Positions 7,085 through 60,623 of a DNA stretch of 62,885 bases are shown in pieces. Below the pieces are notes generated by a model. That model had not been told where the DNA came from, did not search any database, and saw only the letters and a list, made by a program, of their open reading frames with translations. The DNA lies in the NCBI GenBank assembly GCA_014799565.1, contig JAAVHT010000017.1, positions 1 through 62,885 on the forward strand, read 5' to 3'. Position 1 is the first letter of the stretch. The number at the start of each line of letters is the position of its first letter. The stretch comes from Clostridiales bacterium. Its GTDB lineage: Bacteria; Bacillota; Clostridia; Oscillospirales; Oscillospiraceae. The translations under genes and the position numbers were made by a program.

Positions 7085-7116
7085 ACCGCCATCCAGCAGA
7101 AAACAAATTGTTCGCT

Positions 7117-7824: not shown

Positions 7825-7982
7825 GGCACACGCCTCCTTAGAGATATGACTTTTTCAGATGGCTTATGGCAAAATCGGCAGCGGGTATCCGTCTGTCGGT
7901 TTTCCACTATGGTTTCATCATAAACCAAAGCCCTTTGATCGTCCAATACTTTGGTTGTATGATTTGCCATGCCCGAATCGTA

Positions 7983-8867: not shown

Positions 8868-8940
8868 ATGATGGCCTCCCTTCCGTGCCTTATTTTAATT
8901 ATTTGGGAAAAGAAGTGAAATGTCAAGTGCGGCCTTGTTA

Positions 8941-8963
8941 TACCATGTAAAATAGGCATGGTA
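8941..8963. promoter_or_regulatory. Candidate LysR operator
   Basis: TACCATG and CATGGTA are perfect 7-bp inverted arms separated by 9 nt. The T-N11-A spacing expected of LysR sites is present. The dyad lies between the divergent LysR and flavodoxin genes and about 20 bp upstream of the flavodoxin -35 box. Confidence 0.6.
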
Positions 8964-8982
8964 AATAATTCGGAATAAGTAT

Positions 8983-9011
8983 TTTACATTTTCATGGAAT
9001 GCCGCTACAAT
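8983..9011 (+). promoter_or_regulatory. Promoter for the flavodoxin operon
   Basis: TTTACA at 8983-8988 and TACAAT at 9006-9011 are separated by exactly 17 bp and lie 45 bp upstream of the first flavodoxin start. The -35 box is imperfect, as expected for an activator-dependent promoter with the dyad at 8941-8963 upstream. Confidence 0.6.
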
Positions 9012-9055
9012 AAAGCTACAATGCAGAAACCGTTTGATTGAAGGGATTTTCTGAA

Positions 9056-10165: not shown

Positions 10166-10179
10166 AAGGAGTCTTTATC

Positions 10180-10950
10180 ATGAAGAAATTTCTGATTGCT
10201 GTTTTGGGTTTGGTATTATGCTGTGCCTTGACCGCCTGCGGCGGGCAGAGCATCGGCAACAACCCATCCCAAACCCCCGCAGCGTCCCAGCCCACGGAAA
10301 CGCCCAATAGTATTCACCCGCAGGAAACCCCTGAAGCCTCCGCCTCGGAGGACGTATCCGAGCCCAGCGGGCAAGAGGATGGGGACTCTGAAGGGAACCG
10401 CATCCTGATTGCTTACTTCACCTACGGTGAAAACGCGTCTCTGACGGACGGAGTAGACGCCTCCACCTCTGCCAGTATCCAGTATCGTGGTGACAAGCTG
10501 ACAGGAAACACCGGCCTGGTGGCGAGCCTGATTGCCGACGCCACAGACGGCGAACTGTTCGCCATCCTGACAAGGGAGCAGTACCCCGACACCTACAACG
10601 CCACCCTCGACGTGGGGCAGTCGGAAAAAAGCGCCGGTGCTCGCCCCAAACTGTCCTCCCACATCGACGATTTGGACCGCTATGACACCATTTTCTTGGG
10701 CTTCCCCAACTGGTGGGGCGATATGCCCATGGCAGTCTACAGCTTCCTGGACGAATACGATCTTAGCGGCAAAACCATCATCCCCTTTGTCACCTCCGGC
10801 GGCAGCGGCTTCTCCAATACCATCCGCGCTATTGAAAGCGCCGAGCCGGACGCCACAGTGCTGGAGGGTCTGGCCCTGCGGGACAGCCGTTCCACGCAGG
10901 CGGAGGGTGATGTTGCGGAATGCCTGTCCCAGTTGGGACTGGCCGGGTAA
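10180..10950 (+). CDS. Lipoprotein flavodoxin (second paralog)
   Basis: This 256-residue protein has a signal peptide ending in LTAC (Cys20), then a low-complexity linker rich in S, P, T and E (about 22-75) that would span the wall. The flavodoxin domain follows: ILIAYFTYGENAS, an insert with VDASTSAS, the P-loop-like LTGNTG, LGFPNWWGDMP and PFVTSGGSG. Of the three lipoprotein copies this one keeps the clearest phosphate-binding loop. AAAGGAG lies upstream and the gap to the previous gene is 14 bp. The catalytic partner is unknown. Confidence 0.8.
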   Translation: MKKFLIAVLGLVLCCALTACGGQSIGNNPSQTPAASQPTETPNSIHPQETPEASASEDVSEPSGQEDGDSEGNRILIAYFTYGENASLTDGVDASTSASIQYRGDKLTGNTGLVASLIADATDGELFAILTREQYPDTYNATLDVGQSEKSAGARPKLSSHIDDLDRYDTIFLGFPNWWGDMPMAVYSFLDEYDLSGKTIIPFVTSGGSGFSNTIRAIESAEPDATVLEGLALRDSRSTQAEGDVAECLSQLGLAG

Positions 10951-10959
10951 TATAACAGT

Positions 10960-11694
10960 ATGAACTGGAAGCGGTTTGCGGCTGCGCTGTGCGCGCTGGC
11001 ACTTTTGGGGGTATCTGCCTGCGGCAGTGCGGAAGTTTCGGAAGCGTCCCAAACACAGCCGATCCCGTCTGAACCAGATGCAAGCGAAGAACGGCCAGAA
11101 TCCAGCGGTGGTAAGATTCTGATCGCCTACTTCACTTGGGCTGAAAACACGGTCGTGGAGGATCCCGCCACGGTGGATGTAGACGCAACGACCTCTGCCA
11201 GCATCCTGTTACCCGGGCACGTGGCGCAAATGGCCAGTTGGATCCAGTCGGAAACCGGAGGGGATATGGTCTCCATCGTAACGACAAAACCTTACTCCAG
11301 TGACTACGATGAGTGCCTGAACCGGGCCGCCGATGAAAAGGCCGCTAACGCGAGGCCCGTACTGTCAGGCGCGGTGGAAAACATGGCGGACTACGACGTG
11401 ATTTTCCTGGGCTACCCGGACTGGTGGGGAACCTGCCCCATGGCGGTGTTCACCTTTTTAGGCAGTTATGATTTTACGGGGAAGACTGTAATCCCCTTCT
11501 GCGCCCATGGCACCAGTGGTCTGGCGGCCAGTGTCCGGGACATCTGTGCGGCGGTGCCCAACGCCACAGTGCTGGACGGGGTGGGCGTCCGGCGCCCCGG
11601 AATGGATACCTCGCTGGACACAGCCCACTCCACCGTCCAGAACTGGCTGTCTGGGCTTGGATACGGATCATCTTCAAAAAATGAGGCGAATTGA
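10960..11694 (+). CDS. Lipoprotein flavodoxin (third paralog)
   Basis: This 244-residue protein has a signal peptide ending in VSAC (Cys21) and a short acidic linker. The flavodoxin domain has ILIAYFTWAENT, an insert with VDATTSAS, LPGHVAQMAS where the FMN phosphate loop is expected, LGYPDWWGTCP and PFCAHGTSG. The GNT of the second paralog is replaced, so flavin binding may differ. The gap to the previous gene is 9 bp and there is no strong ribosome site, so expression probably relies on coupling. The MATE start lies 4 bp after its stop. Confidence 0.8.
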   Translation: MNWKRFAAALCALALLGVSACGSAEVSEASQTQPIPSEPDASEERPESSGGKILIAYFTWAENTVVEDPATVDVDATTSASILLPGHVAQMASWIQSETGGDMVSIVTTKPYSSDYDECLNRAADEKAANARPVLSGAVENMADYDVIFLGYPDWWGTCPMAVFTFLGSYDFTGKTVIPFCAHGTSGLAASVRDICAAVPNATVLDGVGVRRPGMDTSLDTAHSTVQNWLSGLGYGSSSKNEAN

Positions 11695-11698
11695 TGTG

Positions 11699-13027
11699 AT
11701 GTTTTCCAACCAAGATTTGAAAAAACTGCTGATTCCCCTGGTCATCGAGCAAATCCTGGTCATGCTTGTAGGCATGGTGGATACTGTGATGGTGTCCAGC
11801 GTAGGGGAAGCCGCCGTGTCCGGCGTGGCCTTGGTGGACATGGTAAACTACCTGGTCATCACCGTCCTCACGGCCTTGACCACCGGCGGCGCGGTGGTGC
11901 TGTCCCAATACCTGGGCCGGAGGCAGGCGGACCAGGCGGAGCGCTCGGCAGGGCAGCTCATGACCGTTTCCGCCCTGTTCTCCTTTGTGGTCGCGCTGGT
12001 GTGCATCCTGTTTCGGCGGACCATCCTGGGGCTGTTTTTCGGTGCGGTGGAGCCCGACGTGATGGATGCGGCCCTGACCTATTTCCTGGTAACGGCCTGC
12101 TCCTTCCCCTTCCTGGGCATATACAACGCCGCCGCGGCCCAGTTCCGGGCCATGGGGCGGACGAACGTCACCATGTATGTGTCCCTGCTGATGAATGCGA
12201 TGAACATCGTGGGGGATTTCATCGGTGTGCGCCTGCTCCAGACCGGAGTTCTGGGGGTGGCGGTGCCTACCTTGATTTCCAGAGCAACAGCGGCCTTGGT
12301 TCTGTCCGCGCTGGCCTTCCGCACTGGCAATGAAGTGCGGCTATCCTGGCGGCATATCCTGACCTGGGATGGGACCACCACTGCGCGCATCCTCCGGGTC
12401 GCTGTGCCGGGGGGCGTGGAGAACGGCCTGTTCGCGCTGGGGAAGGTGCTGGTCACCAGCATCGTATCCAACTTCGGCACCGTGCAGATCGCCGCCAACG
12501 GGGTTGCCAACAGTATCGACCAGATTGCCATCATCGTGGTCTCCTCAGTCAATCTGGCGGTCATCACGGTGGTAGGCCAGTGCATGGGCGCACGGGAACA
12601 GGAACAGGCGGAGCATTATACCAAAAAGCTGATGAAAGTCTCCTATCTCTCCACCGGCGCTCTGGGCGGATTGGTCTGTCTGGCCCTGCCGTTGATCCTC
12701 CGTTTCTACAACCTGGAACCGGAGACCCTGCGGCTGGCCGCTGTGCTCATTGTCATGCACAACGTGCTGGCGTTCCTGCTCCATCCAACCTCCTTCAACC
12801 TGGCCAACAGCCTGCGGGCCGCGGGGGATGTGCAGTTCACCATGTATGTGGGGATTGGTTCCATGCTGGTGTTCCGACTGGGCTCCGCGTTCTTGTTTGG
12901 AGTCGTGTTGGAGCTGGGTGTGCTGGGGGTATGGATCGCCATGGGGATGGACTGGCTGGCCCGCTCGGTATGCTTTGTGTGGCGCTGGCATAAAAAGACC
13001 TGGCAGAGCTGCCAGGTGATCGCCTGA
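11699..13027 (+). CDS. MATE-family transporter in the flavodoxin locus
   Basis: This 442-residue protein has about twelve membrane segments in the MATE pattern, two six-helix halves. It opens with KKLLIPLVIEQILVMLVGMV and has DTVMVSSVGEAAVSG in the first half. The ATG at 11699 is chosen because GAGGCG at 11683-11688 is 10 nt upstream; an ATG at 11681 is also in frame. Most MATE proteins export cationic drugs, but the Shewanella MATE protein Bfe exports FAD. Lying between secreted flavodoxins, this one may export a flavin. That substrate is inference. Confidence 0.8.
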   Translation: MFSNQDLKKLLIPLVIEQILVMLVGMVDTVMVSSVGEAAVSGVALVDMVNYLVITVLTALTTGGAVVLSQYLGRRQADQAERSAGQLMTVSALFSFVVALVCILFRRTILGLFFGAVEPDVMDAALTYFLVTACSFPFLGIYNAAAAQFRAMGRTNVTMYVSLLMNAMNIVGDFIGVRLLQTGVLGVAVPTLISRATAALVLSALAFRTGNEVRLSWRHILTWDGTTTARILRVAVPGGVENGLFALGKVLVTSIVSNFGTVQIAANGVANSIDQIAIIVVSSVNLAVITVVGQCMGAREQEQAEHYTKKLMKVSYLSTGALGGLVCLALPLILRFYNLEPETLRLAAVLIVMHNVLAFLLHPTSFNLANSLRAAGDVQFTMYVGIGSMLVFRLGSAFLFGVVLELGVLGVWIAMGMDWLARSVCFVWRWHKKTWQSCQVIA

Positions 13028-13049
13028 TATTATCAAGGAGGAATTGAAT

Positions 13050-14144
13050 ATGGAGTACCGAAAGCTCCCACGCGCGGAGGAACAAATCAGCATCCTGGGC
13101 CTGGGCACCAGCTCTATCGGCATAGCCGGGGAAAAGGAGGCGGAGGCCGTCATGGCACTGGCGTTGGAAGCCGGGATCAATTTCTTTGACATGGCCTCGT
13201 CAGACGCGGTGCCGTTCCCCGCCTACGGGCGGGCGATGCGTGGGGTGCGGGAAAAACTCTATTTCCAGATCCATTTCGGGGCCAACTACCAGACCGGGAA
13301 ATACGGCTGGACCACCGATCTGGACACCATCAAGCGTTCCATCGACTGGCAGTTGTCCGCCCTGCAAACGGACTACATCGACTTCGGCTTCCTGCACTGC
13401 ATTGATGAGGAATCCGACTTGAACACGGTTTTAGACAGCGGCACTTTGGAGTACATCCAGAAGCTGCAAAGGGAAGGGGCTGTCCGGCATGTCGGCCTGT
13501 CCTCCCATACTCCCCGCATTGTCAACCGGGTGTTGGACATGGGAGTGATCGACCTGGTGATGTTCAGCATCAACCCCGGCTATGACTATCGCCACGGAGA
13601 ATTCGCCATCGGCGGTGTGGATGAGCGGGCCGCCCTCTACCGCCGGTGTGAGGCCGAGGGCGTGGGCATTTCCGTCATGAAGGCGTTCAGCGGCGGGCAA
13701 CTGCTCAACGCCAAAACCTCCCCCTTTGGCAAGGCATTGACGGAGTATCAGTGCATCCAGTACGCCCTGGATAAGCCCGGCGTTCTGACGGTGCTGCCCG
13801 GTGTGCGGAACCGGAACGACCTGCGGCGCGTCCTCGGCTTTTTGGATGCCGCGCCGGAGGAGAAAGACTACTCCATCCTCGGCTCCTTCGCACCCCAAGA
13901 CGCGGCGGGAAAATGCGTTTACTGCAACCACTGCCAGCCCTGTCCGGCGGGTTTGGATGTGGGGCTTATCAATAAATACTACGACTTGTCCAAGGCCGGA
14001 GATGCGCTGGCACGCAGCCACTACGAGAACCTGGAGAAAAAGGCCGGGGACTGCGTAAAATGCGGCCATTGCGATAAGCGCTGTCCCTTCCAGGTCGCGC
14101 AAGCAGAGAGAATGTCCGAGATTTGCGCCTACTTTGGGCATTGA
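13050..14144 (+). CDS. Aldo/keto reductase with two C-terminal 4Fe-4S-type cysteine clusters
   Basis: This 364-residue protein has an AKR barrel (about 1-270; LGLGTSSIG at the start, NFFDMAS with the catalytic-type Asp, DFGFLHC). The C-terminal domain has C289, C292, C295 and C298, then C335, C338, C341 and C345, the pattern of two 4Fe-4S clusters. The usual Lys of the AKR tetrad is not obvious (YFQIHFG in its place). A similar change occurs in other iron-sulfur AKRs that I recall. ATG 13050 has AAGGAGGA at 13035-13042. No signal peptide is seen, so it is a cytoplasmic redox partner. Confidence 0.85.
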   Translation: MEYRKLPRAEEQISILGLGTSSIGIAGEKEAEAVMALALEAGINFFDMASSDAVPFPAYGRAMRGVREKLYFQIHFGANYQTGKYGWTTDLDTIKRSIDWQLSALQTDYIDFGFLHCIDEESDLNTVLDSGTLEYIQKLQREGAVRHVGLSSHTPRIVNRVLDMGVIDLVMFSINPGYDYRHGEFAIGGVDERAALYRRCEAEGVGISVMKAFSGGQLLNAKTSPFGKALTEYQCIQYALDKPGVLTVLPGVRNRNDLRRVLGFLDAAPEEKDYSILGSFAPQDAAGKCVYCNHCQPCPAGLDVGLINKYYDLSKAGDALARSHYENLEKKAGDCVKCGHCDKRCPFQVAQAERMSEICAYFGH

Positions 14145-48655: not shown

Positions 48656-50188
48656 TCAATGGTTCCTGCCACCGGGCCGGGACTGTTCTTTTAGATAAGC
48701 TCCGGCGTCCTTGAAAAAGCTGGCGGCAATGAGGACGATGACGGCCCCGATGGGGAAGGCGGCGATGATGCTCACCGACTGGAGGCTGCTCATGGAGCTG
48801 TCTGAGAACACCAGGGCGATGGGCAGGGCGATGAGCAGCAGGCACCACATCAGCTTCACCGCCCAGTGAGGGGAGTCATCCTGTCCCAGGCGGCGATAGC
48901 TGTAGCAGGAGGCGATGAGGGCGATGGAGTCGAAGGAGGTGGCATAGAAGGCCACCATAGTGACCAGTACCAAAACAAGAACCAGCACCGGGCAGGGCAG
49001 GGTGCGGATCATGGAAATGATGAGGGTGTACAAATCGCCTGTCTCGTTGTATTGAGCGACAAAGTCCGCCGCTCCGGACACCTGTTTGCCCAGGGAGTAG
49101 TTGCCCAGCACGATGAAGCTGACGATGGTGGAGCCCACCCCGAAGCCGTAGCCCCCCAGGATGGTCTGCCGCACTGTCCGTCCACGGGAGATGCTGCCGA
49201 TGAAGAAGGGCGCGGCCACGCACCACACCATCCAGTACGACCAGTAGAAAATAGTCCAGTTCTGGGGAAAGGAGGTGGCGCGCTGGGGGTCGGTAAAGGT
49301 GGCCAGCTCAAAGAAGTGCCCGATCATTCGGCCCAGGGCCTCAACGCCGGTCTCGATGATGTACCGGGCCTCGCCGCCAAAGAGCAGTACATAGGCCAGC
49401 AGGCCGAAGAACAGCCAGACGCAGGACTTGGCCAGCAGGCTGATGCCCTTGAAGCCGCGGAGCAGGGAGTAGGTATACACCGCGCAGGTGGCTGCCAGGA
49501 TAAGAACGGTGACCAGCTCCCGGCTCAGGGCGATGTGAAACAGCTCGTCCAAAATGCCCGCCATCAGGGGGGTGGCAAGGCTGAAGGTGGTGGCCGTCCC
49601 CGCCAGCAGGGCGAACACCGCCAGGAGGTCGATAAATCGGCCAGGCACGCCGTCGGTGTGTTTTCCCAGAATGGGACGGCAGGCCTCGGAATACCGCTGC
49701 CGCTCCCGGCGGCGCACATGGAGCATGAAGCCGAACGCCGCCGCCAGCATCAGGTAGAACCCCCAGGGGATGAGGCTCCAGTGGAAGATGGGAAACACAC
49801 TGGCCCAATCCTGGACAGAGCCCAGCTCGGCAATATGGGGGTCTACAGCGTATAAGATCCACTCGGAGAAGGAATAGAACAGGATGTCCGCCGCCAGCCC
49901 CGCCGTGAACATCATGGAACCCCAGGTGAAGAAGGGGTATTTGGGTTTTTCCTCCGGCCCGCCCAGTACAATGCCTCCGTATTTGGAGAACGCCGCGAAC
50001 AGGGACAGCAGAAACACGCCCAGCCCAATGATGAGGTAATAGACGCCGAAGGTGTCCCCCAGCAGGAAGCGGATCTGGCCCAGTATCTGGTTGGAGCGCT
50101 CCGGGAAGGCGAGGAACAGCGCGCTCAGAGCCAGGATGCACCCCAGAGGGGCCAGAGTGATGACCCAGTCGATTTTCTTCCGCTCCAC
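48656..50188 (-). CDS. BCCT-family transporter (choline/betaine/carnitine)
   Basis: This 510-residue protein has twelve membrane segments and BCCT features (YYLIIGLGVFLLSLFAAFSK, FHWSLIPWGFYLMLAAAFGF, NWTIFYWSYWMVWCVAAPFF). It lies one base from licC, so it is clearly in that operon. Its likely substrate is choline, supplying LicA. It would replace LicB, the choline permease of other lic loci. Confidence 0.9.
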   Translation of the reverse strand: MERKKIDWVITLAPLGCILALSALFLAFPERSNQILGQIRFLLGDTFGVYYLIIGLGVFLLSLFAAFSKYGGIVLGGPEEKPKYPFFTWGSMMFTAGLAADILFYSFSEWILYAVDPHIAELGSVQDWASVFPIFHWSLIPWGFYLMLAAAFGFMLHVRRRERQRYSEACRPILGKHTDGVPGRFIDLLAVFALLAGTATTFSLATPLMAGILDELFHIALSRELVTVLILAATCAVYTYSLLRGFKGISLLAKSCVWLFFGLLAYVLLFGGEARYIIETGVEALGRMIGHFFELATFTDPQRATSFPQNWTIFYWSYWMVWCVAAPFFIGSISRGRTVRQTILGGYGFGVGSTIVSFIVLGNYSLGKQVSGAADFVAQYNETGDLYTLIISMIRTLPCPVLVLVLVLVTMVAFYATSFDSIALIASCYSYRRLGQDDSPHWAVKLMWCLLLIALPIALVFSDSSMSSLQSVSIIAAFPIGAVIVLIAASFFKDAGAYLKEQSRPGGRNH

Positions 50189-50189
50189 G

Positions 50190-50912
50190 TCATTTCACCT
50201 CGTCCAGATACTTCCGGTAGCTGGGGTCCAGCGCCGCCAGCTCGGCCAGGCTGTCCACCTCCACGATGCCCCCGGCTTCCATGGGGAATACCCCCAGCCG
50301 GTACTCCTGGGGGTAACAGAACAGCGCCACGTCGTCCCAGTAGATGTCCCGGCTGTGCCGCTCCTCAAATTCGATTTCCAGGTGGCGCTTGAGCCGCCGC
50401 CCGTCCTCTGCGCTCCAGCGGGAAACGCTGTAGAGCTGCCAGCCGTGGGCGCCGCCGGTGCGGCTGCACGAGGACACCACGCCGTCGTCCACCGTCAGCA
50501 GCCACTCGTCCGTGTGCTCATCCGTCCACACGGCGTTATAGCCCGAGCGCTCAAACTCTGGGGACAGCACCCGTGGGTCGCGGATGATGAGGTCGGCGTC
50601 GGTGATGATGGCGTCCTCCAGGTGCTCCCGGGCGGCGTAGAGGGAGGAGATGTTGTTGCAGGATTCGTACCAGGGGTTTTCGATAAGCGTTACGTTGGGG
50701 TATTCCCGCTCTAACACTTGAAACTGTTCTTTTAAATACCCGACGACCACGTAAATTTCGGTGATGCCGTTTGCCATCAGACCTTGTATCACCGTGTCGA
50801 TCATCCGCGTGCCGTTGACCCGCACCAGGGACTTGGGGGTGGTCAGGGTGACGGGCCGCATCCGCTTGCCCTCCCCGGCGGCCACGATGACGGCCCGCTT
50901 GACGGTGTTCAT
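50190..50912 (-). CDS. licC: CTP:phosphocholine cytidylyltransferase
   Basis: This 240-residue nucleotidyltransferase starts at ATG 50912 with RAVIVAAGEGKRMRPVTLTT, the nucleotide-binding start of LicC-type enzymes, then KSLVRVNG, IYVVVGY and NNISSLYAA. It is predicted to make CDP-choline from phosphocholine. It overlaps licA by 4 bp. The pairing with licA supports choline over sugar substrates. Confidence 0.88.
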   Translation of the reverse strand: MNTVKRAVIVAAGEGKRMRPVTLTTPKSLVRVNGTRMIDTVIQGLMANGITEIYVVVGYLKEQFQVLEREYPNVTLIENPWYESCNNISSLYAAREHLEDAIITDADLIIRDPRVLSPEFERSGYNAVWTDEHTDEWLLTVDDGVVSSCSRTGGAHGWQLYSVSRWSAEDGRRLKRHLEIEFEERHSRDIYWDDVALFCYPQEYRLGVFPMEAGGIVEVDSLAELAALDPSYRKYLDEVK

Positions 50913-51877
50913 GGCAAATCCTCTCCCAATTTTTCCAGTTCGCCCCGGACGATCTCGCAGTAGTCCCGGGCGTAGCGGTACTGGGCCAGGGAATAGGCCC
51001 CGAATTCCACCCCCAGGGAGCGCTTGTACTCGCACCAGTTGCTCCACAGCAGGCCGCACACGGCGATATAGCCGTAGATCTTGACCCGGGTGAGGGCGGG
51101 GCAGTCCCCGGCAAAATACTGGTCGATGAGCCGGTTCGCCTGTTCCCGGTCATACATGGCGTAGATGCAGAACATGGCCACGTCCACGTGGGGATCCTGC
51201 ATGGCGGCGTACTCCCAGTCGATGAGGCGGATCTCCTCGCCGCCCCGGTCATTCCGGAAGAACAGGAAGTTGTCCGGCACCGCGTCAATGTGTGTGAGCA
51301 CCTTTTTCCCCACTTGGGCGTCCAGGAAGGGTTTTAAGCGGAACACGTTTTCCTTGGTCTCCCGGTAATCGGGGTAGGCGGAGGGCCGGCCCTCCCACAG
51401 GGATTCATAGAAGTCGATGTGGCCGAACAGGTCGAATTCGTGGTCTGCCCGCAAATTCAGCTCATGGAAGGAGCGCAGCTTGTTCATACACGCGGCGGTT
51501 TCCCGCTCATTCATTGGGTCGCAGGTGCGGGCGCCCTCGATGAACCGGGAGATTTTATAGCCGCTGTCCGGGTCGATGTAAAGCACATCCTCGCACAGTT
51601 CCCGGCCCTGGATGAGACGGTACACCGCCGCCTCCTCTGGGCGGCTGATGAGTCGTCCGGTGCCCTCCCCGGGGACGCGCATGATGTATTTCTTCCCCCG
51701 GCAGGAGAAGAGAAAAGAGCGGTTGGTCATGCCCTTTTTCAAGGCGGAGATGCCGGTGACCTCTTCCGGGTTGGCGCGGAGCACCTCCCCGATCAGCCGC
51801 AGATCGTCGGCTGTGAGCAAATCGGAGTCGGGTATGCCCGCCGGGGCCGGAAAATTATCATGAGCTTGTGAGTCCAT
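50909..51877 (-). CDS. licA: Choline kinase
   Basis: This 322-residue kinase has the choline/aminoglycoside kinase motifs: THIDAVPDN (H196, D198, N203) and LIDWEYA (D220). GMTNRSF near residue 50 is the N-lobe loop. It phosphorylates choline delivered by the BCCT transporter. The start at 51877 has AAGGAAA upstream. Confidence 0.9.
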   Translation of the reverse strand: MDSQAHDNFPAPAGIPDSDLLTADDLRLIGEVLRANPEEVTGISALKKGMTNRSFLFSCRGKKYIMRVPGEGTGRLISRPEEAAVYRLIQGRELCEDVLYIDPDSGYKISRFIEGARTCDPMNERETAACMNKLRSFHELNLRADHEFDLFGHIDFYESLWEGRPSAYPDYRETKENVFRLKPFLDAQVGKKVLTHIDAVPDNFLFFRNDRGGEEIRLIDWEYAAMQDPHVDVAMFCIYAMYDREQANRLIDQYFAGDCPALTRVKIYGYIAVCGLLWSNWCEYKRSLGVEFGAYSLAQYRYARDYCEIVRGELEKLGEDLP

Positions 51878-51955
51878 AAAAACGGTTTCCTTCCGATGCT
51901 CTAAGCCCCCGGTCTGTCCCATTGGAGCGGATCGGGGGCCTTCGCTTGATTGGGG

Positions 51956-54064
51956 TTATTGCCCAGATTCCCTGCCGGACGGGTTGGGGGCGGCAATCTG
52001 GCCGGGATAGCGGCGTTCCAGGCGGTGGACGATATACTGCGCGCCCACCTCGCCGCTGTGGCCCAGGTTGTAGAAGTGCTGCTGTTTCAGCGCGGCGATG
52101 CGCTCCTTGTAGTCCTTCTGATGGGCCAGAAGCTCCTCCACCACGGGGGCCAGTTCCTTGACCTCGTTCTTTTCCACCTGACGGCCCACCTTAGAGCGGG
52201 CGGTGATGTCGAAGGGAACCAGGGGTATCTTCTGCCAGTCCTCGTTGACCACCTTCATCTGGGTGTTGATGAACAGGGAAGGCTTGTCGGTGGTGAAGGA
52301 GAACTCAAAGGCGATGCCGCTCCAGTCGGTGATGACCAGGTCGGCGGTGTACACCGTCACGTTGGAGGAGAAGTCGGTCTCGATGATGAAATCGTCCCCG
52401 GCCTTGTCCTGATACCGCTGGATGATCTCCTTCATCCGCGTGGGGAACCGGCGCACATACTGGGGATGGGGCCGGATGACGATGCGGTAGCCCCTGCCGT
52501 ACAGGGCGCTCACCAGGTCGTCCAGGCAGGAGTCCATGATGTTGTCGTACTGCCAGGAGGGGGCGATGAGGATGGTCTTTTTCTCGTTTTCCGCCTTGTC
52601 CATGGCGGTATACGCGGCGATCATGTCGTCAATGAGTCCGTAGCCGCACTCGATGATCCGCTTCTTTTTCACGTGCCGCAGCTTCTCAATGGCCCGGGCC
52701 TCGATGGCCTGCTCACGGCTCACCACCAGCAGAGTGTCGTAGGCGTCCAGCGCCCCGGTGCGGTAGGCCAGGTTGTCGCTGCTGCACCCGTGGTCCATAA
52801 AGACGTATTCCACATTGTCCTTCACCCGGGAGCGCTTGATGTGGTACTTCTCCAGGTCGGGGGTGGTCATCACCACCATGTCCGCCTCCAGCTTCATCAT
52901 CAGGGAGATGAGCCGGGTCTCGTCCACATAGTAGGGCCGGATGCGTGGCTCGTTCTTTTGAAAAATGGCATCCTCCGGGTCGCTGGTGACGTAGTGGATG
53001 GTCAGATTGGTGTTCCGCAGCAGCGCCTCGATGAGGGCGCGGAAATACTTGTAGAATCCGCTTCCCTCGGAGTAGAACATGATCTTCATGTTCCCCTTGT
53101 TTTCCTTGGAAAAGAACTCCTTGTAGTACTTCTTGGCCAGGGCGGCGTTTTGCCTCTTCCGCTCCTTGTCCTGGGCGGCGGAGCGCTTCATCTCCTCCAG
53201 CAGGCCGTAGTCGATGTATTCCCTGGGGGAGTAGACGGCGTTGCACAGGAACATGACCCCGATGGAGAACAGGTTGCCGAAGATCCAGTACAGCCCCACC
53301 CCCGCAGGGACAATGAAGGCGAAGAAGGTGGAGAAGGCGATCATGAACGCTGTCATGCCCCACTGGGACAGCTTGTTCTGCTCGATCTGCAGCACGTTCA
53401 CCTTGTTCTGCACCCAGCACATGAGCAGGGCGGACAGCCCCGCCAGCACGGGGATGAGGAACAGGGCGTCCAGGGTGTGGACGCTGGGAGTCTCGGCCAG
53501 ATTGATCCCGAAGAAGGTCATGCGCAGGTTTTGGATCTGGGCGACAGCCTCCGCCGAGCCGGGGATAGCGGCAAAGCTGTCCGGCATGGCCCGCACCCGC
53601 TCCACCACGGAGAGCTGGGCGGTGGAGCCCAGTTCGTCCACCGTCACGGACATCAATTGGGCAGTTTGGGCCACAAAGACCCGCTGAAGCTCCGGGGTCA
53701 GGTGGAGGATGTGCTTTAAGGGCTTGTATACCACATCCAGCAGGCCCAGGATAATGGGCAGCTGGAGCAGCAGGGGAATCACCCCCGCCATGGGGTTGTA
53801 GTGCTCCTTTTTATACAGGGCGGACTGGGCGTCCAGAAAGGCGTCGCTGTCGTCCACATACTGGTAGCGGAGCATATCCAGCTGGGGCTTCATCTTCACC
53901 ATCTTGATGGAGTTTTTCTGCACCAGCAGGGAGATGGGGAACATGACCACTTTGGTGAGCAGGGTAAAGACCAGAATGGCGATCCCGTAGTTGCGAAACA
54001 GCCAGTAACAGCCGTACATCAGCCAGCCCAGAGGCGTCCCAATGATCGTATTGATAAGTTCCAT
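51956..54064 (-). CDS. Fusion of YidC/Oxa1 insertase and CDP-glycerol glycerophosphotransferase
   Basis: This 702-residue protein is one open frame. Residues 1-285 are YidC-like: TLLTKVVMFPISLLVQK with Lys38 where many YidC proteins have the groove Arg, an amphipathic region, NPMAGVIPLLLQLPIILGLL, and helices to YWIFGNLFSIG. A charged linker (about 286-325) follows. Residues of about 326-690 match the TagB/TagF-type glycerophosphotransferase (PF04464): MDHGCSSDN, RPHP at 531-534 and ITDWSGIAFEF at 578-588. YidC normally inserts membrane proteins; here it may instead anchor or gate a polymerase. The fusion is seen; its function is inferred. Confidence 0.9.
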   Translation of the reverse strand: MELINTIIGTPLGWLMYGCYWLFRNYGIAILVFTLLTKVVMFPISLLVQKNSIKMVKMKPQLDMLRYQYVDDSDAFLDAQSALYKKEHYNPMAGVIPLLLQLPIILGLLDVVYKPLKHILHLTPELQRVFVAQTAQLMSVTVDELGSTAQLSVVERVRAMPDSFAAIPGSAEAVAQIQNLRMTFFGINLAETPSVHTLDALFLIPVLAGLSALLMCWVQNKVNVLQIEQNKLSQWGMTAFMIAFSTFFAFIVPAGVGLYWIFGNLFSIGVMFLCNAVYSPREYIDYGLLEEMKRSAAQDKERKRQNAALAKKYYKEFFSKENKGNMKIMFYSEGSGFYKYFRALIEALLRNTNLTIHYVTSDPEDAIFQKNEPRIRPYYVDETRLISLMMKLEADMVVMTTPDLEKYHIKRSRVKDNVEYVFMDHGCSSDNLAYRTGALDAYDTLLVVSREQAIEARAIEKLRHVKKKRIIECGYGLIDDMIAAYTAMDKAENEKKTILIAPSWQYDNIMDSCLDDLVSALYGRGYRIVIRPHPQYVRRFPTRMKEIIQRYQDKAGDDFIIETDFSSNVTVYTADLVITDWSGIAFEFSFTTDKPSLFINTQMKVVNEDWQKIPLVPFDITARSKVGRQVEKNEVKELAPVVEELLAHQKDYKERIAALKQQHFYNLGHSGEVGAQYIVHRLERRYPGQIAAPNPSGRESGQ

Positions 54065-54095: not shown

Positions 54096-54773
54096 CTAAA
54101 GCAGATGGGGCCGGGGGAAGTAGACCAGCAGCGCCCGGGCCAGCAGTTCTTCCCGCTGGACAAAGGGGTCGGCCCAGAACCGGGAGTCACGGGAGTTGCG
54201 GCGGTGATCCCCCAGTACCAGGTAGCAGCCCTCGGGTACCACCGTCTCGGGATAGCTGTCGGTGGAAAATTCCGTGATATACGGCTCGTCCAGCAGCTCC
54301 CCGTCCAGATACACCCGTCCGTTTACCATGGAGAAGGTCTGCCCCGGCAGGGCGATAATCCGTTTGATGATGATGTCCCGCCCGAACTCCGACTCATGGC
54401 GAAACAGCACCACGTCCCCCGCCTGGGGCTCTCCCCGAAGGTAGGCGGTGCGGTCACCGATCAACAGCGCCCCGGTGGAGATGGTGGGCTCCATGGAGCC
54501 GGAGGGCACATAGGCGTTGATGAAGATGAACAGGTTGAGGAAGAGGGCCAGCGCCCCGGCCAGAATGGGGAGCAGCCACCACCGATCCTTTTTTTGCTTT
54601 TTTTGCTTTTTTTTCGCTTCCGCAGGCGGTGGATTTGAAGAGGGGACTTCTCCCCCCTCCTCGGGGTCAGAGGTTTCATGGACGTACACCAAAGCAATAA
54701 AGCCAACTGTGAAAGCCAGCCCTGTGGCTATCGCAGGAAGCATCCACCATCGCTCTTTCAGTTGCTTCTTCAT
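54096..54773 (-). CDS. lepB: Signal peptidase I with two similar N-terminal membrane segments
   Basis: This 225-residue protein has the type I signal peptidase catalytic pair: Ser93 in SGSMEPT and Lys137 in IIKRI, plus GDHRRNSRDSR near the end. Two N-terminal membrane segments, each introduced by a KxRWW-LP motif (residues 7-12 and 62-68), look like an internal duplication. ATG 54773 is chosen; GTG 54782, which overlaps the previous stop, is possible. It is embedded in the polymer operon, so it may process a dedicated substrate. Confidence 0.9.
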   Translation of the reverse strand: MKKQLKERWWMLPAIATGLAFTVGFIALVYVHETSDPEEGGEVPSSNPPPAEAKKKQKKQKKDRWWLLPILAGALALFLNLFIFINAYVPSGSMEPTISTGALLIGDRTAYLRGEPQAGDVVLFRHESEFGRDIIIKRIIALPGQTFSMVNGRVYLDGELLDEPYITEFSTDSYPETVVPEGCYLVLGDHRRNSRDSRFWADPFVQREELLARALLVYFPRPHLL

Positions 54774-54778
54774 CGCAG

Positions 54779-55282
54779 TCACCGCCTTGGCGCTGTGCAG
54801 ATGTGCAGGGCCCGCTTCAGCTCCTCCACCTTCTGCCGTTCCTCCGCCAGCAGGCGGCGCAGTTCCCGGTTCTCGGCGGCCAGGCCGCCCTCGCCCCCCG
54901 TCTCGTCAAAGGGGTCGGCGGGGGCCGCCGTAAGCTCTGCGGCGGGCTCCGGCGCGTATGCCCGCTCCGCCGCCGGGGCGGGAGAGGGGGAAGCCTGGGC
55001 CTGAGAGACGGCGGGTTCCAGCTCGTAATCGCCGTAGCCGGTGTCGTCGTCATCGTCGTCCGCGAAGGACTGGAGGTTGGCGCGGCTGCTCCGGCTCTTG
55101 GAAAATCTGCGCTTCAGCTTGCGCAGGTAGAAGCTGAGGCCCGCGCCCGCCGCGATAGCCACGCCGGCGACGAGCTGGATCATATAGGTCATGGCGGACG
55201 GGTCGATATAGGCAAACGCCGTCACGGAGAACAGCATCATGCCAAACCCGAAAAAGTAGATAAATTGTGCCAGTTTTTTCAT
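54779..55282 (-). CDS. Small membrane protein with acidic and coiled-coil tail
   Basis: This 167-residue protein has two membrane segments (about 5-25 and 32-52) around AYIDPSAMTYMIQLVAGVA, then a basic stretch KLKRRFSKSR, an Asp-rich run, a Pro/Ala/Glu-rich region and a C-terminal helix with ENRELRRLLAEERQKVEELK. Proteins with the YIDPSAMTYMIQ pattern are known to me beside sulfatase-type genes in Clostridia, without function. It is tightly packed between two operon genes. Confidence 0.7.
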   Translation of the reverse strand: MKKLAQFIYFFGFGMMLFSVTAFAYIDPSAMTYMIQLVAGVAIAAGAGLSFYLRKLKRRFSKSRSSRANLQSFADDDDDDTGYGDYELEPAVSQAQASPSPAPAAERAYAPEPAAELTAAPADPFDETGGEGGLAAENRELRRLLAEERQKVEELKRALHICTAPRR

Positions 55283-55308
55283 GGGGCGCTCTCCCATCTT
55301 TTCGATAC

Positions 55309-57096
55309 TCACCAGACGTGGGGTTCCAGCGGGGTGAGCTGGGTCAGATTCCAGTTGGAGAAGTCATTGCCGTCCCCGCGGATCACGTAGGTTCCCATGT
55401 ACGCGTCCCGGGTGGTCAGGGCCTCATCGTACAGCAGCATCCAGAAGGTGCGGGCCATATCCTCGTCCTCGCCGATGGACTCAATGGTTCGGCCGTATTT
55501 TGCGGTGTCCAGCCCAAACCACCCGGCGATGGAGGCCCGGAGGTTGTCCTGACAGATCTGCTTGTGGGACAGCTGCATAGGCTGGCTGGTGTCGGCGTGG
55601 GCGGGCTTGATGAGCAGGGGAAGCAGCCGGGGGCTGTCCAGGCGGCTCAGGCCCTGGGTGGTGGCCATCCAGTCGTCACCAACCCACTCGGGGTAGTCCG
55701 CCGCGTGGTCGGTGCTGATGATGATGGTGGTGTCGTCATAGACGCCTTTTTCCCGCAGCTCGTCCAGGTACTGGAGGATCATCTCCATATTTCCCACCAT
55801 CTGGTCGTGCTGGCCGGCGGAATCCCATCGCGTCTCCACCCGCTCCGCTGTCTCGCTCATGTTGAAGGGGTAGTGGGCGCCCTGAAGATGGTAAAAGCGG
55901 AAGCACCCGGTCAGCCCGTCGTTGACGCTCAGGCCCTGGGCGCGGTAGCGGGCCCAGAATTCGGGGTCGTCGATCTGATAGAGATCCCCGCTGGAGGCGG
56001 TCTGGACCGCGTCCAGGTCGCCGGTATAGAGCTGGAAATAGGGTTTTACCGCCTCCGGCGCGTAGCGATAGGCGGACAGCTCCAGCATTTTTGTCAGCAT
56101 GATCCGCCGGCTGTAGCTCACCGTGCTCTGGCCGATGTTGTCGATTTTGCCCTCCACGTTGTCCATCTCGCCTATCACGTCGCCGACATGGGAATAGAGC
56201 CCCACCTGACAGCCTGTATTATGGAGGTCGGACAAAAAGGAGGAGCGCCCCCACGCCCGGCGGAAGTAGTCCCGCTTGCGGATCTCAAAGGGGGCGGCGT
56301 CATCGTCCCTGACCCCGGTGAGCAGATAGGTGACAGAGGCGTAGGTGCGGCTGAAGCTGCCGGTGAAGTCCTGGTAGCTGGTGAAGCCGCCCAGCTCCGC
56401 CTCCCACTCCGGGTGCTGGGCAATCAGGTCGTCCAGATAGGAGCGGTCGCAGCGATCCAGCAGAAAGAACACCACGTTCTGGGAGGGGGCCAGCTCAAAA
56501 ATCCCCTCGGTGGAGAGATAGCGTTCCTGAAGCGCGGAGAGGTTGGTGGTGTTGACCAGGCTGAAGAGGGCCACTGTCTGCATCGCCGCCAGCAGCAGGG
56601 ATACGGTTTCCAGTGTCCGCGTCCACAGCTTCCGGCTGAAATACAGCAGGAGGAACACGGCTCCGATGACAAGCATCCAAACCACAAGGTTTTTCAGCAT
56701 GGCGCCTCGGTAGTTCTGCCACGTCACCGAGGTGCCGTCCAGCGTGCCGTGATCCACGTTCCAGAAGTTCCCCTGGAGGTAGCCCGCCAGCGTCACCGCG
56801 AAAAGGAGAGATACGGCGTAGTTGAAGGGCTTGCCCCGGAGTACCAGCAGAACAGCCAGCAAAACGGCAAAAATCCCCAGCCCCGCCAGCGCCATGACAG
56901 GCGCCAGCAGGCTGAAGGGAAAGGTCATATCGCTGGTATTTTGCAGATACAGTTCACAGGGGCCAAAGAAGATAAACGTGAACACGCAGTTAAAGGCACA
57001 GGCGGCGGCAAGGAACAAGCGGGTTCGAAAGGCCCGCTTGTCCATCCAGAGCGCGCTCCATTTTCTGCCGGCGGAAGCTTTCAGCTCTCGGAGCAT
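55309..57096 (-). CDS. Membrane sulfatase/alkaline-phosphatase-fold enzyme
   Basis: This 595-residue protein has five N-terminal membrane segments (about 25-190), then an extracytoplasmic domain of the alkaline phosphatase superfamily: NVVFFLLDRCDRSYLDDL with metal-type Asp residues, SRTYASVTYLLTG, and IIISTDHAADY. It is related in plan to LTA synthase but the motifs differ. It may transfer or remove phosphoglycerol or phosphocholine on the polymer. The start GGGAGGAACCGAT is 5' of ATG 57096. Confidence 0.8.
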   Translation of the reverse strand: MLRELKASAGRKWSALWMDKRAFRTRLFLAAACAFNCVFTFIFFGPCELYLQNTSDMTFPFSLLAPVMALAGLGIFAVLLAVLLVLRGKPFNYAVSLLFAVTLAGYLQGNFWNVDHGTLDGTSVTWQNYRGAMLKNLVVWMLVIGAVFLLLYFSRKLWTRTLETVSLLLAAMQTVALFSLVNTTNLSALQERYLSTEGIFELAPSQNVVFFLLDRCDRSYLDDLIAQHPEWEAELGGFTSYQDFTGSFSRTYASVTYLLTGVRDDDAAPFEIRKRDYFRRAWGRSSFLSDLHNTGCQVGLYSHVGDVIGEMDNVEGKIDNIGQSTVSYSRRIMLTKMLELSAYRYAPEAVKPYFQLYTGDLDAVQTASSGDLYQIDDPEFWARYRAQGLSVNDGLTGCFRFYHLQGAHYPFNMSETAERVETRWDSAGQHDQMVGNMEMILQYLDELREKGVYDDTTIIISTDHAADYPEWVGDDWMATTQGLSRLDSPRLLPLLIKPAHADTSQPMQLSHKQICQDNLRASIAGWFGLDTAKYGRTIESIGEDEDMARTFWMLLYDEALTTRDAYMGTYVIRGDGNDFSNWNLTQLTPLEPHVW

Positions 57097-57180: not shown

Positions 57181-58719
57181 TCAGGCAAAGTGTTCGACGT
57201 AGTAGGGGGAGTACTTGGTGATCTCGTAGTCCAGGCTCTTAAAGCCCATGCGCTCGGAGAGGGTGTCCTCATCGGAGAACAGGTTCACGCCTAAGCCCAG
57301 GCGGTTCCCCTCAATGTTAAAGCCCATGGCGGCCAATATGGTGGGGTAGTAGTCCAGGGTGGAGAATTCCCGGTTCTGGCGGCGGCTCATGTCCGGGAGC
57401 GGGCAGGCCAGGTTCAGGAAGCAGTTGTACACCGTCCTGTCATAGTACTCCAGGTTCTCCACCAGATTGTTGTCCATTCTCGGGTGGTCGCCCAGGACAA
57501 CGATTACGGTGTCCTTATAGAAATCCTGCTGGGAGCACCACTCGAGGAACTCAGCGACCTGCCGGTCGGCGCAGGCCACCACGTTGGCGGTCTGGTTTTC
57601 ATACTCGCTGCCGCACAGCTCGCAGACATATCCGCCGATGTGGTGGGTGTCTACCGTCAGCATGGTGAAGTTGAAGGGCTGATCGTCCTCGGCCAGCTTC
57701 AGCAGCTTGTCCTTGGCGATTTCGTACAGGATCTCGTCCTCAATGCCCCACCACGCGCGGTAATCCTCCGGGAAATAGCCCTCGTCCCTGGTGCTGAAGT
57801 AGTCGCAGACCTCGTAATTGCCGTGCTGCTCAAAATACTTCTTCCGTCCGGCAAACTCCCCGTCGGAGCCGCACAGGAACAGATTGTGGTACCCGTTTTT
57901 CTCCAGGATCTCACCCAGGCTGACGCAGCCGGAGGCGAAATACTCCTGCTCGCCCATGTCATTGTCCGCGATGGGGAAGGAGAAGGGGATGCCGGAGGTG
58001 GAGGACAGCAAAGCCGCCATGGTCCAGTTTGTCCCGGTGCCCGAATGGGATCCGCCCAGCAGCGTGGAGTTGGAGAAGGAGCAATTCTTCTGCGCCAGCG
58101 CGGTGAGATTCGGGATGTAATTGACCGGCTGCATCCCGCCCACATCCTGCGAGGCATAGGTAGTCTCCATGCTCTCCAGGTAGATGCAAAGCAGATTCTT
58201 TTTCCGCGCCGGCGCCGTAATGCGCACGCTGTTCGGATCTACGTAATGCTTTTCATAGAGGGTGGAGGCGTCCGAACGCAGCTTGGCATAGCCCATGACA
58301 TCCAAGCTGTCGTTCACAAATTTGCAGGTGTTGAACAGGGAGAGAATGGCGAACAGCGTCATCAGATGCCGCGCCAGGCTCAGCAGATCAATGCTGCGGC
58401 GCCAGCGGAACACATCGATCTTCGCCGTGACGGCAAAGCGCCGCTGGAGGAGCAGGCATACCGTGCCGGCCAGGATGAACAGAGCCAGCACGATCAGGGC
58501 GGGGATACAGGCGACCACCCCGTCCACGACGACGCCCAGCTCACTGCCGTCCAGAGGGGAGGCCATCGTGTATAAAATCTGCTGAAAGGTCACGTCAAAG
58601 GTGGCGTTGACCCAGGTGGTGACACCGAAGAATATGGCTGCCGCCGCGAACAGAACACAGCTGACGACAAGTTCCACCACACGTCCGACGTGTTTTTTAT
58701 TGGTTGTTTGCTTCTTCAT
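57181..58719 (-). CDS. LTA-synthase-family phosphoglycerol transferase
   Basis: This 512-residue protein has about four to five membrane segments (about 12-135), then a sulfatase-type domain: LLCIYLESMETTY with Glu182, TGTNWTMAALLSSTSGIP with candidate nucleophile Thr233, TVDTHHIGGYV and VVLGDHPRMDNN. These match LtaS/OpgB-type transferases that move phosphoglycerol from phosphatidylglycerol. The start at 58719 has AGGAG 7 nt upstream. It overlaps the previous gene by 23 bp. Confidence 0.87.
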   Translation of the reverse strand: MKKQTTNKKHVGRVVELVVSCVLFAAAAIFFGVTTWVNATFDVTFQQILYTMASPLDGSELGVVVDGVVACIPALIVLALFILAGTVCLLLQRRFAVTAKIDVFRWRRSIDLLSLARHLMTLFAILSLFNTCKFVNDSLDVMGYAKLRSDASTLYEKHYVDPNSVRITAPARKKNLLCIYLESMETTYASQDVGGMQPVNYIPNLTALAQKNCSFSNSTLLGGSHSGTGTNWTMAALLSSTSGIPFSFPIADNDMGEQEYFASGCVSLGEILEKNGYHNLFLCGSDGEFAGRKKYFEQHGNYEVCDYFSTRDEGYFPEDYRAWWGIEDEILYEIAKDKLLKLAEDDQPFNFTMLTVDTHHIGGYVCELCGSEYENQTANVVACADRQVAEFLEWCSQQDFYKDTVIVVLGDHPRMDNNLVENLEYYDRTVYNCFLNLACPLPDMSRRQNREFSTLDYYPTILAAMGFNIEGNRLGLGVNLFSDEDTLSERMGFKSLDYEITKYSPYYVEHFA

Positions 58720-59083
58720 GGTAGGGCTCCTCTTTTGGTTTGCTGATTTGTCCTGCGTTTTCTTCATCGCCGCCGTCCACCCGGGTAATATCCAGGCTGA
58801 TCCGAATGTGCTTTGCGGCCCTGAAGAGTTGGGTGAGCAGCCAGGCGGCCAGCAGCGCGGCCATGGTATAGTGGGCGGAATCCACAGAATAGGAGAGACC
58901 CAGCAGCTTGTGGGGAACCGTCAGCAGGATCCGCGCCAGCGCGTAATTGCAGCAGACGGTGATGCCATATTGAACCAGAAACTCCAGAGACGGCTCAAGC
59001 GGTTTCCCCCGCTTTTTAAAGTACAGATAGATAGACAGCATGGGGGCGAAGAAAAGATTGATAAAAATGGCCAGTTGAATCAA
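58697..59083 (-). CDS. Small membrane protein, first gene of the polymer operon
   Basis: This 128-residue protein starts at TTG 59083, since an in-frame stop lies just upstream. It has about three membrane segments (LAIFINLFFAPMLSIYLYF, LVQYGITVCCNYALARILL, YTMAALLAAWLLTQLF) and a charged tail ending KPKEEPYHEEANNQ. No family is recognised. It overlaps the LTA-synthase-like gene and may form a complex with it. Confidence 0.65.
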   Translation of the reverse strand: MIQLAIFINLFFAPMLSIYLYFKKRGKPLEPSLEFLVQYGITVCCNYALARILLTVPHKLLGLSYSVDSAHYTMAALLAAWLLTQLFRAAKHIRISLDITRVDGGDEENAGQISKPKEEPYHEEANNQ

Positions 59084-59513: not shown

Positions 59514-60623
59514 TCATGATGATTTATGAGATAACTCGGATGGGAAGAGTCGTTCGATCCTGCTGTCAATGTAAAGCGAGACCCTTTTTACCAATCCCAT
59601 ATAGTGCTTTTCCAGTACGGCTATTCTGAATAGCTCGATCAGCGTACAGCATACAAATACAATGAGGGCGGCCGCGAGAGAATACGGGATCAAAAACGGG
59701 CTGTGGCTGAATGACGCGTTTTGAAACAGCGTACCCCATAAAAAGGGGCGGACAAAATTGTTCTCGTGAATCAAATATACTCCAAAGGTAGCCGATGAGA
59801 TCTGATTGACAGCCCGATTGCAGCCAATATCAATTTGCAGAAAGCCCAAAAACAGGAACAGGGCCGTCAGCACAGTGGGCAGCCGCTGCATATGGATCAC
59901 GTAAGCGGCCAATTTGCCGGCAGCGGGGATTTTGCTTTCAAACAGATCCGAAATAACCATTCCCAGACACGCCGTAAGCATGGCGGCAAAGGCGCCCAGG
60001 AAGGCGGTCTTGGGGCCTATGGCTATTTTATTGACATGGAGCCGGACATAGGCCGATACCGCGTACAGGTAAGCGAACCACAGCAGATAATTGCTTCCAT
60101 AGGCGGAGCCGAAAAAGGTTGGGATGACGCACCAGCAGACCGTGAGCAGCGCCAGCATTTTCTGATAATCCTGTTTGTCCAATCCCCTGAGAAGCTTGTT
60201 CAAGTATGGTGAGATCAGGTACAATACGAAGTATGTGCTGGCAAACCACCATCCGGAATATGTAATGGGGAAAAGGCAGTTGATCACCATCCTTATCCCA
60301 TAAGGGTTGACCCCCGCCAGGGTAAAAACAGCGAGGAGAAGGATGGAATAGGTAAAAATCTGGAGGGCGAGCTTCAGCGCCTTATCCGTCCTGAACGCGG
60401 TGGAACCAATCAAAAAATAGCCTGAGATGAGCACAAAAATATCCACGCCAAGATTGCCGCCAAAGGTAAGGCACTGAGTCCACAGCCTGTTTACCGTGAG
60501 TTCGCCGCTGGGAAACTGAAAGCCGCCATGGGTCGAAAAGTGGCAGATGATGATCATCAGCATCGCGATGATCCGAAGCAGTTCTATATTTGACTGCCGC
60601 TCGGCGCGCCCGGTTGTCTGCAA
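59514..60623 (-). CDS. Acyltransferase 3 family membrane protein
   Basis: This 369-residue protein has about ten membrane segments and the family start SNIELLRIIAMLMIIICHFS with the conserved His, and GGNLGVDIFVLISGYFLIGS. Such proteins O-acetylate glycans or lipids outside the cell. The start is TTG 60623 with GGGGGGAA upstream. It has its own unit between two terminators, beside the polymer operon, and may modify that polymer. Confidence 0.85.
   Translation of the reverse strand: MQTTGRAERQSNIELLRIIAMLMIIICHFSTHGGFQFPSGELTVNRLWTQCLTFGGNLGVDIFVLISGYFLIGSTAFRTDKALKLALQIFTYSILLLAVFTLAGVNPYGIRMVINCLFPITYSGWWFASTYFVLYLISPYLNKLLRGLDKQDYQKMLALLTVCWCVIPTFFGSAYGSNYLLWFAYLYAVSAYVRLHVNKIAIGPKTAFLGAFAAMLTACLGMVISDLFESKIPAAGKLAAYVIHMQRLPTVLTALFLFLGFLQIDIGCNRAVNQISSATFGVYLIHENNFVRPFLWGTLFQNASFSHSPFLIPYSLAAALIVFVCCTLIELFRIAVLEKHYMGLVKRVSLYIDSRIERLFPSELSHKSS

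Follow-up and report, generated by a model that had tools for sequence, protein, structure and literature searches.

A YidC–GT-B fusion as a predicted CDP-headgroup transferase for surface phosphocholine or phosphonate decoration

What is a YidC insertase doing on the same polypeptide as a domain that resembles the polymerases of wall teichoic acid? The question is raised by a 702-codon frame at 51956..54064 on the minus strand of the DNA analysed here, a stretch of 62,885 nucleotides of Clostridiales contig JAAVHT010000017.1 (hereafter the window). The initial annotation read this frame as a YidC core (residues 1–285) followed by a TagF-type domain, tacitly took the second domain to polymerise glycerol phosphate, and suggested that the YidC part might be a lipid groove or coupling device of a surface-polymer enzyme. 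We think it reasonably probable that the fusion is instead a membrane-embedded CDP-headgroup transferase, predicted to decorate the cell surface with phosphocholine or phosphonates, its YidC domain being a retained, specialised paralogue predicted to serve the transferase.

Architecture and distribution of the fusion

The frame is continuous and the division into a YidC core and a TagF-like domain is borne out, with the second domain placed at residues 324–690. The YidC/Oxa1 domain (residues 1–285; 53210..54064, minus strand) matches 60KD_IMP, and the GT-B domain, a probable CDP-headgroup transferase (residues 324–690; 51995..53095, minus strand), matches PF04464 with 51.2 bits against a cut-off of 22.1. 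Structure prediction gives a complete, intact YidC fold and a GT-B domain with the fold of TagF, which is its best fold match. Between the two, predicted secondary structure and sequence place a K/R/E-rich linker helix (residues 286–317; 53114..53209, minus strand). The fusion shares with the wall teichoic acid polymerases TagF and TarL (PF04464; 3l7k, 8va1) the GT-B fold, the Pfam family and a His/RPHP/D-x-S core, with H425, R531-P-H533-P and D580-W-S582 invariant in all 74 aligned fusions. Also invariant in these 74 are N51, Q219, W260 and N264 of the YidC domain; position 38, which we take to be that of the Arg/Lys of the YidC groove, carries K in all but one (73 of 74), the exception having R. 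The only NCBIfam model passed by the two fusions searched, that of the window and that of locus L088, is YidC, so that proteins of this kind, for all their resemblance to enzymes of surface decoration, are likely to be annotated as membrane protein insertases.

An alignment of nine fusions, scanned against GTDB species genomes, yielded 535 confirmed relatives, and the best 80 of these were examined. Adding eight family loci and the window itself gives a set of 89 fusions, or 86 distinct loci once L081, L083 and L097 are dropped as duplicates of L034, L033 and L035. Both domains lie in one frame in 89 of 89 loci, with no stop or second frame between them. An assembly chimera or a frame error was rejected as an explanation because relatives have the same frame. 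Longest-frame gene calling erred at loci with shadow frames (8 of the 89, plus the sulfatase-fold gene of the window), and profile searches over all frames were therefore used.

Carriers among the best 80 of the 535 relatives are mostly metagenome-assembled and belong to the Lachnospiraceae, Oscillospiraceae, Peptococcaceae, Erysipelotrichaceae and Coriobacteriales/Eggerthellaceae, with Roseburia inulinivorans DSM 16841 (Lachnospiraceae) and Bittarella massiliensis GGCC_0305 as named strains. Distribution is patchy within the window's own family, where the transferase clade described below was found in 11 of 150 genomes and is absent from two of the same genus (G066 and G145, 100 and 99% complete). 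A draw of 398 genomes from the phylum held two clear fusions, in the window genome and in G594, and a match in G509 that is broken by a contig end. A plasmid-borne family was considered and rejected: ten plasmid records matched, and at no single site did any of them cover more than 80% of the query.

The transferase domain and its headgroup supply

On a tree of transferase domains, the fusions (31 of the 89, plus L144) form one clade (100/98) with domains that are joined to the small membrane protein YIDP (YIDP-GT) or stand alone (solo GT). The 17 TagF-like rows, several of them weak PF04464 matches or long-branched, fall outside it. Fusions score 24–54 bits against PF04464; 16 other matches from the genomes that carry them reach 84–296 bits, although a few stand-alone matches are also weak (21–33 bits). 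We searched for TagD, the CDP-glycerol synthase, in 56 fusion genomes, the set also used to test fusion genomes for LicD, PF04464 and the cytidylyltransferase (L079 was left out). TagD was above cut-off in 3 of these and gave at least 80 bits in 13, in which CDP-glycerol may therefore be present; 29, including the window genome, which is only 78% complete, had no match at E ≤ 1e-3.

These data bear on the reading carried over from the initial annotation, by which the protein would be a TagF-type CDP-glycerol polymerase, the YidC groove would hold the lipid carrier, and the choline genes of the operon would decorate the polymer separately. The PF04464 match above cut-off, the TagF fold and the TagD-like matches in 13 genomes are what one would expect of such an enzyme; the separate clade, the low PF04464 scores, the 29 genomes in which no TagD match was seen and neighbours that follow a phosphonate or choline supply all argue against it, and we regard it as improbable. 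Lying outside the TagF-like rows, in genomes of which 3 of 56 have TagD over the cut-off, and beside genes predicted to make CDP-choline or activated phosphonates, the second domain has probably been assigned the wrong substrate. The fusion differs from TagF and TarL in having its own clade, an attached YidC and, as we infer, CDP-choline or a CMP-phosphonate as donor.

The window operon itself points to choline. Its minus-strand gene order is MdoB-like, sulfatase-fold, YIDP, signal peptidase I, fusion, LicA-like, LicC-like and BCCT, with gaps of at most 84 bases, or four-base overlaps, between frames. Following the fusion on this strand are a LicA-like choline/ethanolamine kinase (50909..51922; PF01636, PF01633), a LicC/PntC-type cytidylyltransferase (50190..50912; PF12804/PF00483), whose start ATG at 50912 overlaps the LicA stop (ATGA), and a BCCT transporter that is a probable choline importer (48656..50188; PF02028, 396.9 bits). 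Judged by these Pfam matches, the choline kinase, the cytidylyltransferase and the choline importer of the lic pathway all have putative counterparts here; PepM or Ppd with PntC is absent from the window operon. As in the lic pathway (LicA, LicB, LicC, LicD), choline uptake, a kinase and a cytidylyltransferase stand beside a surface-polymer transferase, but the importer is of the BCCT type and the place of LicD as final transferase would be taken by a YidC-linked GT-B domain.

Among the 86 distinct loci, headgroup-activation genes lie within 8 kb of the fusion in 55, and in 41 of the 52 whose flanks extend for 5 kb or more in both directions; no activation gene was found within that distance in 31 of the 86 or in 11 of the 52 with full flanks. 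When loci are clustered at 60% identity, 17 of 23 clusters keep an activation gene; for the 17 clusters that include a full-flank locus the figure is 15. By our own labels the cassettes of the 86 loci are of the choline type (LicA) in 28, AEP import in 11, a cytidylyltransferase–PLP enzyme fusion in 6, PepM phosphonate synthesis in 5, cytidylyltransferase alone in 4, AEPT with a cytidylyltransferase in 1 and none in 31, and a BCCT transporter is found near the fusion in 20. These counts rest on profiles built in this analysis, with representatives named by NCBIfam: its equivalog cut-offs were passed by AEPT in L088 and, in L109, by Ppd and PepM, and the matches of the AEP importer and of a PsrA-like dehydrogenase fell below them. 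Frames of the cytidylyltransferase–PLP type are about 600 residues long, join a PntC-type cytidylyltransferase to a CobD/HisC-like enzyme (L108, 12221–14029; also L087, L089, L106, L117 and L039), and possibly make an activated amino-alcohol phosphate or phosphonate.

As a control we took 15 TagF-like loci that lack YidC and belong to the same genomes, four of which (L127, L130, L131 and L132) are weak PF04464 matches of 22–25 bits; L139, which contains a fusion, was excluded. A cytidylyltransferase match at the 200-bit threshold was found in 0 of the 15 and LicA in 1, namely L138, whose cytidylyltransferase match of 178 bits falls just below the threshold. In whole genomes of the family, a LicC/PntC-type cytidylyltransferase profile matched in 20 of 150, comprising all 11 with the transferase clade and 9 of the 139 without it (Fisher p = 1.1e-11, kinship uncorrected), an association that is favoured because the profiles were built from such loci, 2 of the 13 rows of the alignment used (A4; rows G000 and G124) coming from the 150 genomes tested. 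A twelfth family genome, G025, which has a contig-end piece of a fusion, gave no cytidylyltransferase match. Within the 56 fusion genomes the cytidylyltransferase was found in 53, and not in G168, G180 or G197.

The supply of headgroup varies between loci. On a tree of 38 fusions, labelled by us (L107 was called choline with a sub-threshold LicA match of 94 bits), the cassette label changes a parsimony minimum of eight times; well-supported branches alone force fewer changes, namely 3, 1, 3 and 2 for four labels. Given that cytidylyltransferase, transferase domain and sulfatase-fold enzyme are usual companions while the supply cassette varies, we infer, and hold this strongly, that the transferase domain uses a CDP- or CMP-activated headgroup. 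The class of donor, CDP-choline or an activated phosphonate, is well supported by context; what we propose for the acceptor, for lipid flipping and for transfer outside is put forward more tentatively.

Where LicD was sought, it was found in 16 of the 56 fusion genomes and in none of the other 40, which include the incomplete window genome, and the LicD motif was seen neither in the window nor in any of the 85 fusion loci fetched. LicD is present in 4 of the 11 family genomes with the transferase clade and in 4 of the 9 that have the cytidylyltransferase without the clade, and LicD frames also lie near two systems (L145 and L147) in which YidC is joined to a sulfatase-fold enzyme. The idea that LicD and the transferase clade are mutually exclusive alternatives is unsupported, given those 4 genomes of 11.

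The YidC domain and its partners

A tree of YidC domains was built from 32 of the 89 fusions and L144, 19 stand-alone YidC proteins and 6 of 7 split-system loci (L126, which is split over two frames, dropped out). The 33 fusion rows form one clade (98/96), the 19 stand-alone proteins another (98/92), and the YidC of the YidC-sulfatase proteins a separate, distant clade; recruitment may therefore have happened twice. The initial annotation had left room for the fusion being its genome's only YidC. This was ruled out by a separate housekeeping YidC elsewhere in the window genome, which adjoins rnpA-like and jag-like frames, a neighbourhood checked in this genome only. The YidC domain of the fusion has the full fold and the charged groove position of YidC/Oxa1 insertases (3wo7; SpoIIIJ, E. 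coli YidC), but it is a second copy, attached to a transferase and found neither in the stand-alone clade nor in the rnpA neighbourhood.

Four further genes precede the fusion on the minus strand. Signal peptidase I (54096..54782) lies near the fusion in 31 of the 86 loci, and the MdoB/LtaS-like phosphoglycerol transferase (57181..58767) is a neighbour in only 5. Between them lie YIDP (54779..55312), a small membrane protein with an AYIDP motif that matched no Pfam or NCBIfam family, and a sulfatase-fold, LtaS-like protein (55309..57096), membrane-anchored and a probable transferase. YIDP is found within 8 kb in 75 of the 86 loci and in 48 of the 52 full-flank loci, and the sulfatase-fold gene in 73 and 45 respectively, leaving 13 of 86 and 7 of 52 in which no sulfatase-fold gene was seen within that distance; the two are joined in one frame in 15 loci. 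This frequent partnership is a further difference from the lic pathway.

Across 50 sequences of the sulfatase-fold enzyme, D214, H408, D463 and H464 are invariant and T251 is present in at least 90%; we take T251 to be the nucleophilic Thr, and D463 and H464 to be metal ligands of the fold. The enzyme resembles LtaS (2w5q) in these positions and in its putative sulfatase fold, and it differs from LtaS in being tied to headgroup-activation genes and in lying far below the NCBIfam cut-off for LtaS (17.1 vs 970); its Pfam score is likewise low (17.6 against 25). Compared with solved structures, its profile matches a phosphonate monoester hydrolase best, slightly ahead of LtaS 2w5q (E 4.4e-8), so it may be a hydrolase.

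The four modules, YidC, transferase, LtaS-like sulfatase-fold enzyme and YIDP, recur in permuted fusions. In L123 a free YidC of 232 residues (Pfam 82.3 bits) precedes a 1027-residue frame with a YIDP-like start, a transferase domain, hydrophobic stretches and a sulfatase-like part (152 bits with our own profile, none with Pfam); this is present in tandem copies, which are followed by Ppd, PepM-PntC and PsrA. Seven loci (L124, L145, L146, L147, L148, L149 and L150) have the pairing swapped, with YIDP-GT and YidC-sulfatase frames. Four of these were scanned with Pfam: 60KD_IMP and Sulfatase are both above cut-off in L145 and L146; for L124 and L148, where Pfam shows the sulfatase part below its cut-off or not at all, the assignment comes from our own profile. 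Two such systems occur in one genome, G443 (L145, 6622–15152; L146, 6268–17783), one beside AEP synthesis genes and the other beside choline genes. In L151 a YIDP-GT lies beside choline genes, with no YidC-sulfatase frame found in 20 kb. Finally, L143 of genome G572 carries, contiguously at 4693–13723, a PepM-cytidylyltransferase, Ppd, PntC and AEPT (by our own profiles), directly followed by a solo GT of the same clade as the fusions and then by two sulfatase-like frames. Pfam confirms the first of these frames (41.3 bits), and the second has only a weak match to our own profile; no YidC was seen near the solo GT.

If the YidC domain served solely to insert the operon's YIDP protein and sulfatase-fold enzyme into the membrane, with the transferase attached for co-regulation, its complete fold, the frequency of YIDP and signal peptidase I at these loci and the free YidC of L123 would follow readily, but the fusion of two YidC lineages to catalytic domains, the second YidC of the window genome and an L143 system that keeps the rest without a nearby YidC would not, and we consider this very unlikely. 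A less remote alternative takes its logic from pneumococcal LicD, which acts at the cytosolic precursor stage before export. Here decoration by the transferase domain would take place in the cytosol, on a lipid-linked glycan or teichoic precursor that a separate flippase would then export; the YidC domain would be an anchor only, and the sulfatase-fold enzyme would add glycerol phosphate from phosphatidylglycerol. The pneumococcal precedent, the LtaS match of the sulfatase-fold profile, the MdoB-like gene of the operon and the charged linker helix are consistent with such an arrangement; a mere anchor, however, leaves unexplained both the conserved YidC positions (N51, Q219, W260, N264 and K38) and the YidC-sulfatase fusions of other systems. 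We regard this alternative as possible but doubtful.

A proposed route for the headgroup

We return to the reading that we favour, a CDP-headgroup transferase served by its YidC domain. Because YidC is joined to a cytosolic transferase in some systems and to a probably outward-facing sulfatase-fold enzyme in others, its most likely place of action is at the membrane, between the two. The general idea of the initial annotation, that the YidC part is a lipid groove or coupling device, is supported by these same two kinds of fusion, and a coupling role is plausible. Passages of a preprint (PMC10491306) report that YidC of E. coli scrambles lipids in liposomes, and parts of a 2025 review (PMC7618853) restate the idea, a term search of that review finding none of 'fused', 'fusion' and 'glycosyltransferase'. 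It is from this reported activity, together with the position of YidC between the two enzymes, that we propose a route in which a lipid is charged, crosses the membrane and hands over its headgroup.

In the window operon, choline would be imported by the BCCT transporter, phosphorylated by the LicA-like kinase and activated to CDP-choline by the LicC-like enzyme, and the cytosolic GT-B domain would move phosphocholine onto a membrane acceptor. Sister systems would supply CMP-2-aminoethylphosphonate instead, imported or made from PEP; hydroxyethylphosphonate is a probable further headgroup and an amino-alcohol phosphate a conceivable one. The transferase would be anchored by the YidC domain, whose open polar groove would present the lipid acceptor; the domain would probably also give the charged lipid passage across the bilayer, after which the adjacent LtaS-like sulfatase-fold enzyme would pass the headgroup to a surface polymer outside. 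In its fullest form, which we offer as a conjecture with rather less than an even chance of being right, this would be a lipid relay: the TagF-derived domain charges a lipid such as diacylglycerol, YidC moves it, and the LtaS-type enzyme transfers the headgroup and returns the lipid, the headgroup being swappable (phosphocholine, aminoethylphosphonate or others) and the YidC fold freed from protein insertion.

We know of no other Oxa1-superfamily protein with a dedicated lipid-translocation job, and if the relay is true this would be, to our knowledge, the first; it would also provide the missing step after CDP-choline or CMP-AEP in many anaerobes. The fusions are natural test cases for lipid translocation by the YidC fold. 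A full-text search, limited to openly licensed PMC papers, found no description of a YidC-transferase architecture. In the sections of Rice et al. (2019, PMC6697681) that bear on this question, PepM, Ppd, AEPT and a PntC-type enzyme make CMP-AEP, the later steps are called unknown, and the neighbours mentioned are LicD-like phosphotransferases or glycosyltransferases; its searched text contains neither 'YidC' nor 'glycerophosphotransferase'. Relatives of the window system have the same genes as these Pnt clusters, with PepM in 5 and an AEP importer in 11 of the 86 loci, in addition to Ppd, AEPT and a PntC-type enzyme, and differ in that a definite candidate for the transferase can be named, one linked to YidC and partnered by a sulfatase-fold enzyme. 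The family is thus a specific candidate for the steps after PntC, as that paper delimits them, and for phosphocholine decoration without LicD.

Two observations concern the surroundings of the window operon. On the remainder of the window's contig (L042), the first part beyond the window is N-rich and its frames read X. Upstream of the operon lie a 128-residue frame without family (58697–59083) and an acyltransferase (59514–60623), and frames of the same clusters are again found ahead of the operon in two close relatives, L048 and L064.
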